Below are positions 2,521 to 17,989 of a stretch of 22,194 nt of DNA, piece after piece. The notes under the pieces are model-generated. The model worked only from the letters and a program-made list of their open reading frames with translations, ran no database searches and had not been told where the DNA came from. Positions within the stretch are counted from its first letter, which is position 1, and each line of letters begins with the position of its first letter. The DNA lies in IMG/VR virus record IMGVR_UViG_3300027896_000248, positions 1 to 22,194 of that record; one strand, given 5' to 3'. A program made the translations under genes and the position numbers. This DNA is from a virus.

Positions 2521-2698
2521 GATAATATCAACTATTGAAATTGATGAGAACTTTTTTGATGAGAAAGACCCCGAAAGTCTTGCATGGTTTGAAAGTTTGC
2601 TTAATGATAGCGATAATACAATATTGCAGTTATGGTCAAACGACATAGGGGATGAAATCGGTCAGTCTAAGGAATTTAAATATGAAATCATTAAATAA
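2510..2698 (+). CDS. Small acidic protein, hypothetical
   Basis: 62 residues, very acidic (runs such as EIDENFFDEKDPE). The start ATG lies inside the end of the preceding gene, an 11-base overlap typical of coupled phage genes. It has no recognised domain. Small acidic phage proteins often bind and block host proteins, but nothing here identifies a target. Confidence 0.6.
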   Translation: MKIKIISTIEIDENFFDEKDPESLAWFESLLNDSDNTILQLWSNDIGDEIGQSKEFKYEIIK

Positions 2699-2704
2699 AC
2701 AACC

Positions 2705-2938
2705 ATGAGTAAGACAGCAGTAACACAAGGTATTGAGAAACTTTGGGTAGTATATCAGAATACAGATAGCCCAAAAGAAAAAGGTGAACTAAGTGCTATC
2801 ATATCAACATTTGAAGCACTCCTGCAAACCGAGAAGGAGCAGATAATTAATGCATTTGAAGAAGGTGCAAATTGTGTTTTTAGTGGTAATGATGAACCAT
2901 CAGCCGAACAATATTACTCCGACACCTACGAAAAATAA
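2705..2938 (+). CDS. Small acidic helical protein, hypothetical
   Basis: 77 residues beginning at ATG 2705, six bases after the previous stop. It reads as helical (GIEKLWVVYQNT, AIISTFEALLQTEKEQIINAF) with an acidic C-terminal tail containing GNDEPSAEQYY. It is the last gene of the small cluster before a gap of about 160 bases with two hairpins. No family recognised. Confidence 0.6.
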   Translation: MSKTAVTQGIEKLWVVYQNTDSPKEKGELSAIISTFEALLQTEKEQIINAFEEGANCVFSGNDEPSAEQYYSDTYEK

Positions 2939-2985
2939 GCGTTTTTCACAAGGTGTAAGTAAATTTCACTTAATCCTGACATTTC

Positions 2986-3052
2986 GCATTTCGAGAAATG
3001 CAAAAGCTCATTGATAATAAAAATATATTAATATTAGGTACTAATAGTACCT
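2986..3052 (+). other. Two short hairpins in the gap before the Cys-rich gene
   Basis: GCATTTC-GA-GAAATGC (2986-3001) is a perfect 16-base palindrome, and AGGTACT-AAT-AGTACCT (3036-3052) is a 7-bp stem with a 3-base loop followed by TTTAAT. The second could be a weak terminator. Either could be a protein-binding operator. The gap 2939-3100 otherwise shows no convincing gene, and its in-frame ATG at 2998 lies inside the first palindrome. Confidence 0.4.
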
Positions 3053-3100
3053 TTAATAACAATTATATAAACGATCTTATTAATGATAAAAACAATAATA

Positions 3101-3300
3101 TGCCGGATATAACAATGTGTAAGGATGAACACTGTCCTTTAAATAGTAAGTGTTATAGATATACAGCTTCTCCTGGAGCATGGCAATCGTTCTTTATGGA
3201 AAGTCCCAGGGAAAATGATGGATGTGAGTACTTTATGGAAGATTGGAGAACTAAAAAAGATAGCAATGGAAGTAACAAAGAGGTCACAACTGACAGGTAA
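3101..3300 (+). CDS. Cys-rich small phage protein, putative metal-binding
   Basis: I take ATG 3101 as the start, giving MPDITMCKDEHCPLNSKCYR at the N-terminus. The frame is open to an earlier ATG at 2998, but that extra stretch is low-complexity Asn/Ile sequence crossing two palindromes. Four Cys (C-x4-C-x5-C, then a later GCEYF) with CPLNSKCYRYTASPG and WQSFFMESPR are reminiscent of a small Cys-containing protein family recurrent in phages of Bacteroidota, perhaps binding zinc. The C-terminus is polar and probably disordered. It overlaps the next gene by 35 bases. Function unknown. Confidence 0.6.
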
Positions 3301-3478
3301 GTTAACTACACTAGATCTGGATATAACAGATGAGCAGTTAGATAGGGTAGAGTGTAGGAGAGAAACAAGTACTCCTATCCAGAAGATAGTACCTCATTTG
3401 AGTGCCAGTGAAAGGGAGTTCCTTATAAGTGGTATAAGTCCGGAAGAGTGGATAAATGAGTTCGGTATACCGGAATAA
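3266..3478 (+). CDS. Small conserved phage protein, hypothetical
   Basis: 70 residues from ATG 3266, which is preceded by an A-rich stretch. The frame is open further upstream (ATG 3215), but the earlier part lies fully inside the preceding gene, so the shorter form is preferred. The segment DITDEQLDRVECRRE followed by IQKIVPHLSASEREFLISG and ISPEEWINEFG resembles a short helical family common in tailed phages of gut bacteria, with the pattern PxLSxxEREFLxxGIxPEEW. No biochemical role is known to me. It overlaps the upstream gene by 35 bases. Confidence 0.6.
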   Translation: MEVTKRSQLTGKLTTLDLDITDEQLDRVECRRETSTPIQKIVPHLSASEREFLISGISPEEWINEFGIPE

Positions 3479-3486
3479 AACAAATA

Positions 3487-3741
3487 ATGATGGATAACAG
3501 GAAAGGTCTGCAGGTAATAGGATATAGGATGAACAGTGATGAACTGAACTTAGCAAGTATGTTCAAACGTACTATAGAGAAAGCATTTGAAAGTAGTCCA
3601 GGAGCAGGTATGGAAGAAGTTGCAGGTAAGTTGGGCATCACCACAAGATCTCTATACCGGATAACAGACATATGGGATATTGAAAGAGCAAGTGTAAGGA
3701 AAAGAAGACATAAGAGAATGACACAAAAAACTATTATATGA
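3487..3741 (+). CDS. Putative helix-turn-helix protein
   Basis: 84 residues. Residues about 42-62 (MEEVAGKLGITTRSLYRITD) fit a helix-turn-helix: a first helix EEVAGKL, turn GIT, and recognition-like helix TRSLYRITD. The C-terminal tail is strongly basic (RKRRHKRMTQK), consistent with nucleic-acid binding. It sits close to the promoter at about 3900-3931 and the palindromes at 2986-3052, so local regulation is possible but only inferred. Start ATG 3487 follows the previous stop by 8 bases; ATG 3490 is an alternative. It overlaps the next small gene by 4 bases. Confidence 0.55.
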   Translation: MMDNRKGLQVIGYRMNSDELNLASMFKRTIEKAFESSPGAGMEEVAGKLGITTRSLYRITDIWDIERASVRKRRHKRMTQKTII

Positions 3742-3917
3742 AACAGCTAATAGTGAACCTATTATGGGGAAAGCCTAAAGAAGGTATACCGGTATCACAG
3801 ATAAGGCAGAGTACTCACACAACAATGCCCGATGTAGTGATACCTGTAGGTAAAATGCATGAGGTACTATATGATGCATTAGAAAAAGTAAGAAAAAGAC
3901 TTGCAGAAGTTGATTAA
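3738..3917 (+). CDS. Small hypothetical protein (59 residues)
   Basis: ATG 3738 overlaps the upstream stop (ATGA arrangement), and the frame runs to TAA 3915-3917. The protein begins MKQLIVNLLWGKPKEGIPVS, has PDVVIPVGKMHEVLYDAL in the middle and ends with a basic helix (EKVRKRLAEVD). It contains the palindrome TACCGGTA (3787-3794). Codon use (ATA, GTA, AGA) matches its neighbours. Function unknown. Confidence 0.6.
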   Translation: MKQLIVNLLWGKPKEGIPVSQIRQSTHTTMPDVVIPVGKMHEVLYDALEKVRKRLAEVD

Positions 3918-3931
3918 ATAATGTATCTTTG
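3901..3931 (+). promoter_or_regulatory. Bacteroidota-type promoter before the kissing-loop RNA and HNH gene
   Basis: TTG at 3901-3903 and TATCTTTG at 3924-3931 are separated by 20 bases, matching the TTG/TTTG - 19-21 - TAnnTTTG pattern. Transcription would start near 3938, at the beginning of the structured RNA. The -33 element lies inside the end of the 3738-3917 gene. Confidence 0.6.
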
Positions 3932-4030
3932 TATAGACAAATGGGATGGTGCCCCATATCAAGATATTGGCCTATTAGGATGAAAGTGTGCACCATACAC
4001 CTAGTCCTGGTAGGCCATAATAGTTTATAC
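3931..4030 (+). ncRNA. Structured RNA with perfectly complementary hairpin loops (kissing loops), class unknown
   Basis: Hairpin A is ATGGG (3941-3945), loop ATGGTGC (3946-3952), CCCAT (3953-3957). A longer arm pairs GGCCTATTAGGA (3969-3980) with TCCTGGTAGGCC (4005-4016), has an internal loop, then hairpin B: GTGT (3986-3989), loop GCACCAT (3990-3996), ACAC (3997-4000). The two 7-base loops are exact reverse complements. An outer helix GTATAGA (3931-3937) with TTTATAC (4024-4030) could close the element, but its 5' strand overlaps the predicted promoter. The HNH start codon is 2 bases after it, so it may control that gene. The topology recalls purine riboswitches (two 7-base loops that touch), but the junction does not match their consensus. 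Confidence 0.6.
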
Positions 4031-4032
4031 AA

Positions 4033-4731
4033 ATGAAACTAATAGGATTACATGGGAAACATGGACAAGGAAAATTCACTCAAGTAAGCGATGAAGATTA
4101 TGAGTATTTGAATCAATGGAAATGGTTTGTTAAAATTTATTCTAATGGTGAATATGCAAGAAGAACTCAAAGAATTAATGGTAAATCTAAAGAGATTAAA
4201 ATGCATAATTTAGTATTACCATTAGCAGATAAAAAATTAATACCAGATCATATAGATGGTAATGGACTGAATAACCAAAGGTTAAATTTAAGAGCAGCAA
4301 CTAGAAGTCAAAATGGAGCTAATAGAGATGCTAGAAGAATAGAAAAATCTTCTAAATATAAAGGTATATACTGGAAAGGTTCTAGAAATAAATGGATGGC
4401 TGCATGTAAAGCTAATGGTAAATTGTACAGTAGTTCTCATATTACAGAAGTCTCAGCGGCTTTGGGGTATAATAAACTAGCATTAAAACATCAAAAAGAA
4501 TTCGCAAGATTAAATATAATTCCAGAATCAGTAATAAATCAAAATAATATATATTTAGAATCATTACTTGCTACAAAAATATGTGCAAAATGTAAAACAA
4601 GGTTACCAAAAACAGAATTTTATAAAGTTCCTAAAAATGGAAGACTATCTTGTTATTGTAATCTTTGTAAAAAGATATATATGATTGATTATTATAATAA
4701 CAGTAAAGAAATGAAGTACAACGTAAATTAA
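4033..4731 (+). CDS. HNH homing endonuclease with AP2 domain and C-terminal zinc-ribbon
   Basis: 232 residues. Homing endonucleases cut unoccupied alleles and so spread their own gene. The HNH fold spans about residues 56-90: MHNLVLPL, then PDHIDGNGLNNQRLNLR, with H58, D72-H73 and N80/N81 as the metal and catalytic positions. An AP2-like DNA-binding domain follows at about 107-160 (SKYKGIYWKGSRNKWMAAC, LGYNKLALKHQKEFARLN). The C-terminus has C184-x2-C187 and C209-x2-C212, a zinc-binding segment often seen in these enzymes. Codon use differs from the neighbours (more TCT and TTA), a sign of recent arrival. I see no intron core around it, so it looks free-standing. Confidence 0.85.
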   Translation: MKLIGLHGKHGQGKFTQVSDEDYEYLNQWKWFVKIYSNGEYARRTQRINGKSKEIKMHNLVLPLADKKLIPDHIDGNGLNNQRLNLRAATRSQNGANRDARRIEKSSKYKGIYWKGSRNKWMAACKANGKLYSSSHITEVSAALGYNKLALKHQKEFARLNIIPESVINQNNIYLESLLATKICAKCKTRLPKTEFYKVPKNGRLSCYCNLCKKIYMIDYYNNSKEMKYNVN

Positions 4732-4795
4732 GAGAAGGATGACACCAAAGACAAATCAATAACCAATAATTATAAACAATCAAAAATCAACCAAA

Positions 4796-5077
4796 ATGTT
4801 AAAGAAACCAAGTACAACGGAATTAGTAGAAGTAGTAAATGAAGGATTAATAAGCCTGTTAGACCAAGAAGTACTAATAATGTGCTTTAACTATTTCTAT
4901 GCAGGGGTATTAGTAGGAGTAAATGATAGTTATATAAAATTATCAAACTGTCATATAGTGTATGAGACAGGAGCATTTAATGATAAGAAATATAAAGATG
5001 CTCAGAAAATAGCGGATGAATACTACATACAGTTAAGTGCAATAGAGTCATTTGGAAAAGGAATTAAATTGTCATAA
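4796..5077 (+). CDS. Small phage protein, possible Sm-like beta fold
   Basis: 93 residues. After an N-terminal helix (TTELVEVVNEGLISLLDQEV), the segment VLIMCFNYFYAGVLVGVNDS and YIKLSNCHIVYETG alternates hydrophobic and polar residues like a five-strand Sm/Hfq-type barrel, with a GVLVGVND turn. The C-terminal AQKIADEYYIQLSAIESFG would be a final strand. Similar sequences are common in phages as hypothetical proteins, so the RNA-binding idea is an inference from the pattern only. It is preceded by a 64-base A-rich leader after the HNH gene, and the hexamer-repeat ORF starts 2 bases downstream. Confidence 0.6.
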   Translation: MLKKPSTTELVEVVNEGLISLLDQEVLIMCFNYFYAGVLVGVNDSYIKLSNCHIVYETGAFNDKKYKDAQKIADEYYIQLSAIESFGKGIKLS

Positions 5078-5079
5078 AC

Positions 5080-5268
5080 ATGAGAATAGTACAGAGACCT
5101 CAGAGTAGATTAAGAAAATGGTCAGGGTCAAGGTCAAGGTCAGGGTCATGGTCATGGTCAGGGTCAGGGTCAGGGTCAGGGTCAAGGTCAAGGTCATGGT
5201 CAGGGTCAAGGTCAGGGTCATGGTCAGGGTCATGGTCAGGGTCAAGGTCAAGGTCAGGGTTAGTATAA
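5080..5268 (+). CDS. Possible Ser-(Gly/Arg/Trp) repeat protein
   Basis: 62 residues from ATG 5080, two bases after the preceding stop, beginning MRIVQRPQSRLRKW and continuing as Ser alternating with Gly, Arg or Trp to a C-terminal GLV. The repeat comes from hexamers read as TCA-NGG, where N is G, A or T. All three + frames are open through the array, so openness is weak evidence for coding. The main support is the well-placed start and the basic non-repetitive N-terminus. A rival frame, ATG 5118 to TAA 5280-5282, would encode Val alternating with Arg/Lys/Met (54 residues). The array may instead act as DNA. Confidence 0.4.
   Translation: MRIVQRPQSRLRKWSGSRSRSGSWSWSGSGSGSGSRSRSWSGSRSGSWSGSWSGSRSRSGLV
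5121..5258 (+). repeat. Tandem array of 23 hexamers GTCANG
   Basis: Twenty-three perfect head-to-tail copies of GTCANG occupy 138 bases. Only the fifth base varies, being G 11 times, A 7 times, T 5 times and C never; the other five positions are invariant in every copy. The array lies about 490 bases before the DNA polymerase start. It could be an iteron-like protein-binding array at a replication origin, or a low-complexity coding repeat. Confidence 0.95.
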
Positions 5269-17662: not shown

Positions 17663-17989
17663 ATGGAAAAAGAAAAAAGGTTAAAAGGTAATGAAATAAT
17701 AGCCAGATATGCAGGTAAGAGTTTCCCATCAAGTCATATAAGCGATTATAGGAATGAATTACCAGAGAATATGAATAGAAGGTACTTAAAATATCATAGG
17801 TTATGGGATGAATTAGTACCAGTAGTGAAAAAACTAAAATTGGATCTATGGTTAGCGAATACAAATCCAACAGAAAAAGCAAATAGAAGACTACTGAAAG
17901 CATGGAATGAAATGGAAATAGTATCAATATGGGAAGAAGTAGTAAAAGGAATACAAGTATTGCAACTAACCAATAAAACAGAGGAGTAG
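17663..17989 (+). CDS. Helical phage protein, hypothetical (108 residues)
   Basis: Starts at ATG 17663 after the hairpin gap. The N-terminus KGNEIIARYAGKSFPSSHIS is followed by a region rich in Trp and Lys (YHRLWDELVPVVKKLKLDLW, NRRLLKAWNEMEIVSIWEEV). It looks like a compact four-helix protein. It ends 6 bases before the UDG-family gene, so they are probably co-transcribed. No motif recognised. Confidence 0.6.
   Translation: MEKEKRLKGNEIIARYAGKSFPSSHISDYRNELPENMNRRYLKYHRLWDELVPVVKKLKLDLWLANTNPTEKANRRLLKAWNEMEIVSIWEEVVKGIQVLQLTNKTEE

Follow-up and report, generated by a model that had tools for sequence, protein, structure and literature searches.

Two hairpins whose 7-nt loops are exact reverse complements of each other (3941-4016) lie directly 5′ of an HNH homing endonuclease gene in the window, i.e. 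the whole 22,194-nt stretch (a 22-kb virus record) analysed here. Judging from sequence and predicted folding, we favour, with modest confidence, the reading of this element as a 5′ leader RNA that acts in cis, belongs to the mobile homing endonuclease gene and would limit or time expression of that gene. A preliminary description had likewise suggested an RNA that controls the mobile gene, and the suggestion gained support. The complementary loops on perfect stems, the 12-bp arm and the possible outer helix that it reported were all recovered, the first by direct reading of P2 and P3 and the others as P3 and P1. Its boundaries of 3931-4030 denote the same element, which is better bounded at 3928-4033. 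It had also placed the RNA between a promoter and the start codon. A compact RNA does lie between a promoter-like box and the ATG, but the 5′ strand of P1 overlaps that box. The features are listed in Table 1.

Table 1. Features of the leader and of the adjoining nuclease gene in the window.
Feature	Position	Strand	Description
Promoter-like −7 box TATCTTTG	3924-3931	+	TAnnTTTG, Bacteroidota type
P1 outer helix	3928-3938 with 4023-4033	+	11 bp
P1 5′ strand	3928-3938	+	overlaps promoter box
P2 hairpin	3941-3957	+	5 bp, ATGGG 3941-3945 with CCCAT 3953-3957
Kissing loop 1 (P2)	3946-3952	+	ATGGTGC, direct reading
Single-stranded linker ATCAAGATATT	3958-3968	+	contains AAGAWATT motif
P3 hairpin	3969-4016	+	12 bp, 3969-3980 with 4005-4016; 5/4 internal loop; 4-bp tip
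P3 tip	3986-3989 with 3997-4000	+	4 bp
Kissing loop 2 (P3)	3990-3996	+	GCACCAT, direct reading
P1 3′ strand	4023-4033	+	ends on A of the HNH ATG at 4033
HNH homing endonuclease gene	4033-4731	+	232 aa, HNH_3, Pfam PF13392, 28.2 bits (cut-off 24.8)

The claim that this order exceeds chance was borne out. The 118 nt 5′ of the HNH gene received a score of −47.5, a simple energy sum to which no penalty for kissing or pseudoknots was applied. Of 6000 dinucleotide shuffles made from this leader, none reached −47 or −40 and 2 reached −34. A strict test for 7+7-nt loops was passed by 49 of 100,000 shuffles. RNAfold gave −46 kcal/mol (z −2.9) for positions 3900-4060. The leader is present in one copy in the window, and a Pfam search of the nuclease returned HNH_3 as its sole match.

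Four homologues, each 5′ of an HNH gene, were identified in other phage contigs. The first is in the related record G001, upstream of that record's own HNH gene, and the second (L136, in G004) came from a pattern scan. With a covariance model made from two sequences, L150 (E = 9e-10) and L151 (E = 3e-5) were then identified among 88 sources. Loop pairs of the five sequences are ATGGTGC/GCACCAT (window), ATGGTAC/GTACCAT, CTCGTAC/GTACGAG, CTGGTAC/GTACCAG and CTAGTCC/GGACTAG. All 35 cells of the loop-loop helix are paired and three of its seven pairs changed on both sides, so that uncompensated loop changes, which the preliminary description had named as evidence against the structure, did not occur. 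In the stems 94.3% of cells are paired and 17 of 32 pairs show changes on both sides, in an alignment of only five sequences that was fitted to the model and is hence biased towards structure. As a control, sliding the partner strand by 1-3 columns left 33-45% pairing, and none of 500 shuffles matched the stem alignment on either pairing or both-side changes. P1 is paired in 98.1% of cells with both-side changes in 2 of 11 pairs; the five pairs of P2 are intact in all five sequences, four of them with both-side changes; and P3 shows such changes in 11 of its 16 stem pairs. The L136 RNA departs from that of the window in 16 of 108 columns while the HNH proteins are 40% identical, which places the RNA under a constraint of its own. 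Searching by sequence only performed poorly: a strict loop-pattern search gave zero matches, and among the listed matches of two pattern searches (74 and 64 matches) the only true homologues were L136 and L014, the latter from the same contig as L008/L153. Model R2 revealed no further sequence homologue among 93 sources.

Conserved stems of these homologues contain G-U pairs, which points to an element that acts as RNA and not as DNA. The inverted repeats could otherwise serve as an operator or a cruciform, and passages of PMC2988022 relate that intron endonucleases of T4 can bind to operators close to their promoters. We nevertheless give a DNA-level function hardly any credence, considering the G-U pairs and loop sequences that vary freely yet remain complementary.

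The RNA and the HNH gene form a unit that comes after a small ORF and before gene 4796 in the window, follows a homologue of gene 19074 in G001, and lies between homologues of genes 8872 and 11038 in G004. Because the RNA adjoins the HNH gene at three different places, it travels with the nuclease gene. The HNH profile detected one gene per record. In a search of 12 records, model R2 placed the RNA beside the HNH gene in all five clade records and gave zero copies away from nuclease genes. Elsewhere, the window contains a tandem array of GGTCAG hexamers (5120-5260; 23.5 copies, 88% matches) and two adjacent tRNA genes (1070-1218).

In Flavobacterium the TAnnTTTG box occupies −12 to −5, according to passages of PMC9723704, and the window transcript is therefore predicted to start at about position 3936. 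The same spacing rule puts the predicted start on a G in all five clade members; in L136 the promoter box lacks a clean TA. Since 8 of the 11 bases in the 5′ strand of P1 precede the predicted start, the full helix would form only on read-through RNA. Pairing of the promoter region with the start region has a p-value of 0.015 in the window and of at most 0.015 in each of the five clade members. In all five, the start region is predicted to be unpaired at 0.20-0.45 on read-through RNA versus 0.40-0.59 on the gene's own transcripts, a modest effect. For the AUG itself, accessibility is no lower on read-through in two of them, the window (0.44 versus 0.46) and L151 (0.42 versus 0.53).

For the clade of the window, the leader is thus best described as a putative promoter-gated lock, the most likely arrangement here. 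The 5′ strand of P1 would be the promoter itself, and the 3′ strand would end at the start codon. Read-through transcripts from upstream genes would close P1 over the start region, and the kissing three-way junction would clamp the closed helix. Transcripts from the gene's own promoter would lack the 5′ strand of P1 and leave the start region freer. Over all leaders, pairing between promoter and start regions reached p<0.05 in only 10 of 43 (median p 0.31), and a lock between promoter and start codon was therefore rejected as a general feature. It is perhaps specific to the clade or partly a by-product of a TTTG box facing an A-rich start.

We collected 241 HNH upstream regions, nearly all from IMG/VR; 61 were dropped as short, N-containing or similar to another, leaving 180 non-redundant ones. 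Two kissing hairpins, spaced constantly relative to the start codon, precede 24 of these 180 genes, compared to 0.55 expected from 7200 shuffles, and 19 of the 24 fall outside the sequence family of the window. Loops are compensated between the related leaders L343 and L348 (CTTGCGG/CCGCAAG versus CTTGCAG/CTGCAAG) and between the related leaders L157 and L240 (GTGGTAG/CTACCAC versus GTGCAAG/CTTGCAC). The AAGAWATT motif, picked post hoc, is found in the linker of 11 of the 24 (0.81 expected). A first, loose energy descriptor had too high a background; we therefore filtered by position and cut off at −34, both choices being made after seeing the data.

Many HNH leaders display a looser design: their 5′ segment is not itself in a hairpin but is paired to the final hairpin's loop. 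With kissing pairs included and a cut-off of −30, likewise chosen post hoc, this design was found at 38 of the 76 HNH genes whose leader measures 60 nt or more (2.1 expected). It was also detected at 14 of 88 HNH genes without a leader gap (5.8 expected) and, among 200 leaders from other genes, at 17 (5.0 expected), a control from which genes with an HNH-like signature had been removed beforehand. As these two sets exceed expectation as well, part of the excess reflects the background structure of real genomes. A leader is absent from most HNH genes that directly adjoin the gene upstream. Among named phages, 21 regions were retrieved, in most of which the HNH start abuts the upstream gene, and none of the seven scored HNH upstream regions reached the threshold. 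A genome-wide scan covering 392 kb found 8 distinct strong kissing places, compared to none in one shuffled copy; five precede homing nucleases, one is the L427 unit described below, and two (L414, L416) are not before a nuclease.

Two further leader types were observed along the way. L166, L186, L200, L222 and L257 share a recurrent layout of a closing stem, an inner hairpin and then a further hairpin, whose loop (CCGAACG or CCAGAAC, for example) is complementary to a sequence further downstream (CGTTCGG or GTTCTGG). In L232, L233, L237, L159, L271 and L195, a 5′ segment pairs over about 10-12 nt inside the last hairpin, and some of them nest a further hairpin, which recalls an HDV-like fold by topology alone.

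In 37 of the 38 leaders the paired loop segment ends 16-65 nt 5′ of the ATG, and 15 of the 38 have a TAnnTTTG box 5-45 nt upstream of the 5′ segment (0.96 expected). At least five T in the six nucleotides after the last hairpin were counted in 19 of the 38 (6.6 expected), and L152, L157, L158, L228, L240, L250, L268 and L287 have a strong terminator look. These features, together with the placement of the loop segment, are consistent with an attenuator, in which the 3′ hairpin would act as intrinsic terminator and its kissing or pseudoknot pairing with the transcript's 5′ end would tune read-in to the nuclease. As an account of the element as a whole this is possible but rather doubtful: the leaders of the window, of L136 and of the LAGLIDADG and NUMOD4 genes show no convincing run of U behind the last hairpin, and a terminator scan of the + strand from 3500 to 5100 found none. 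The last hairpin is often terminator-like in other leaders, where attenuation may therefore serve the same role as the lock proposed for the window; for those leaders, by their sequence features, it is at least as likely as a lock.

The design is not confined to HNH genes. Three of the seven strongest leaders (≤−35) in the control set of 200 turned out by Pfam to precede homing endonucleases, namely GIY-YIG, NUMOD4-HNH and LAGLIDADG. G004 contains a second copy before a GIY-YIG gene, with the 8-nt loops TGCGGTAA/TTACCGCA, which model R2 found independently. The G006 GIY-YIG leader has GCGGCAAC/GTTGCCGC, again compensated. In the LAGLIDADG and NUMOD4-HNH leaders the 5′ segment pairs with the loop over a long stretch; the G001 NUMOD4 pair, read by eye, is GCTTATCAGTTA/TAACTGATAAGC. 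When homing nuclease genes were collected by similarity from four phage records (window, G001, G004 and G006), 9 of 14 had a leader and 5 did not; it precedes 4 of 4 HNH, 2 of 4 GIY-YIG, 2 of 3 NUMOD4-HNH and 1 of 3 LAGLIDADG genes. The LAGLIDADG homing endonuclease of the window itself (PF14528, 11728-12531) has no kissing leader.

With the leader common to unrelated proteins, an RNA-protein machine specific to HNH is unlikely; related folds placed before several unrelated kinds of nuclease are therefore probably a built-in control switch. We see about even chances that the sequence-independent architecture, in which the last hairpin's loop is paired to the 5′ end of the leader, serves as a general control module for free-standing phage homing endonucleases from at least three unrelated catalytic families, working as lock or attenuator.

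The promoter-like box and terminator-like end of many leaders would also suit a stand-alone or trans-acting small RNA, either in a layout like that of type III toxin-antitoxin systems (promoter, RNA, terminator, ORF) or with antisense-like pairing of loops between molecules. One unit in G006, L427, has this form: on the − strand (about 17682-17760 of the reverse complement), a promoter-like box is followed by a 13-nt 5′ segment, AAACCGTGGAAAG, and a terminator-like hairpin with a loop complementary to that segment, and no nuclease gene comes right after. L427 is possibly a stand-alone RNA or a relic. For the leaders in general we regard such a small RNA as improbable, as a specific RNA-protein partnership is disfavoured by proteins as unrelated as HNH, GIY-YIG and LAGLIDADG, and the 12 records held no R2 copy away from nuclease genes.

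The preliminary description had further noted a topology like that of a purine riboswitch with a dissimilar junction, which holds, and had raised an undescribed riboswitch or a ribozyme-like element, neither of which found support. We compared the window leader to all 4227 Rfam families; none matched at the gathering threshold, and two matches at E≤10 were at chance level. Of 40 further loci, only tRNAs were reported at the gathering threshold, and the LAGLIDADG leader gave only chance miRNA-like matches. The same search detected a group I intron (RF00028) in the G001 polA gene, serving as a positive control. That DNA polymerase A gene (L419:1275-4304) is split by an insert with a GIY-YIG ORF (2671-3447) and the RF00028 match (3396-3670); polA of the window is unbroken. 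A ligand-binding riboswitch would account for the three-way junction with kissing P2 and P3 loops and for the partly conserved linker motif AAGAWATT. We nonetheless consider it very unlikely, given zero Rfam matches, junctions that vary across the wider set with no conserved ligand-like core, and regulated genes that are nucleases with no common metabolite. No conserved catalytic core was seen that would suggest a ribozyme.

Homing endonucleases are selfish genes, widespread in phages, and mistimed cutting is undesirable. To our knowledge, control of free-standing homing endonucleases outside T4 has been little studied, and we found no description of such leaders in the open-licence literature. 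A tertiary-structured leader common to unrelated nuclease families would, if true, imply selection on the control module itself. The design also offers a structural search key for elements of this kind that lack sequence similarity, and the element yields small kissing-loop RNAs open to direct testing.

Among known systems, the purine riboswitch (Rfam RF00167) shares the three-way junction and loop-loop kissing of P2 and P3; unlike it, the kissing helix here consists of seven perfect Watson-Crick pairs of variable sequence, the gene context differs, and the junction core has no Rfam match. Type III toxin-antitoxin loci combine a promoter, a compact, repeated antitoxin RNA with tertiary pairing, a terminator and the gene of an endoribonuclease toxin, whereas the window RNA is a single copy without repeats and the genes are DNA endonucleases of several unrelated folds (HNH_3 in the window). 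The HEARO or OMEGA RNA of IscB-IsrB is a structured RNA adjoining an HNH-domain gene; the present leader differs in being about 100 nt long with no match among the Rfam families, in preceding a 232-aa protein with HNH_3 only in Pfam, and in a design that also occurs before non-HNH nucleases. Group I introns carry the same kinds of endonuclease genes, but the leaders have no RF00028 match. A precedent is found in T4-type phages, where RNA structures control the homing endonucleases I-TevI/II/III, segB and Aeh1 mobE and, in passages of PMC2988022, a structure masks the translation start on read-through RNA and has the gene's own promoter within its 5′ arm. Similarly, the leader described here is structured and placed just 5′ of a phage homing endonuclease, and by sequence its promoter box (3924-3931) runs into the 5′ arm formed by P1 (3928-3938). 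The same passages describe the T4 leaders as RNA structures over the Shine-Dalgarno site, with no kissing pair, whereas the present leader has a kissing hairpin pair and a closing helix that extends as far as the start codon, in a design found again across nuclease families without sequence similarity.
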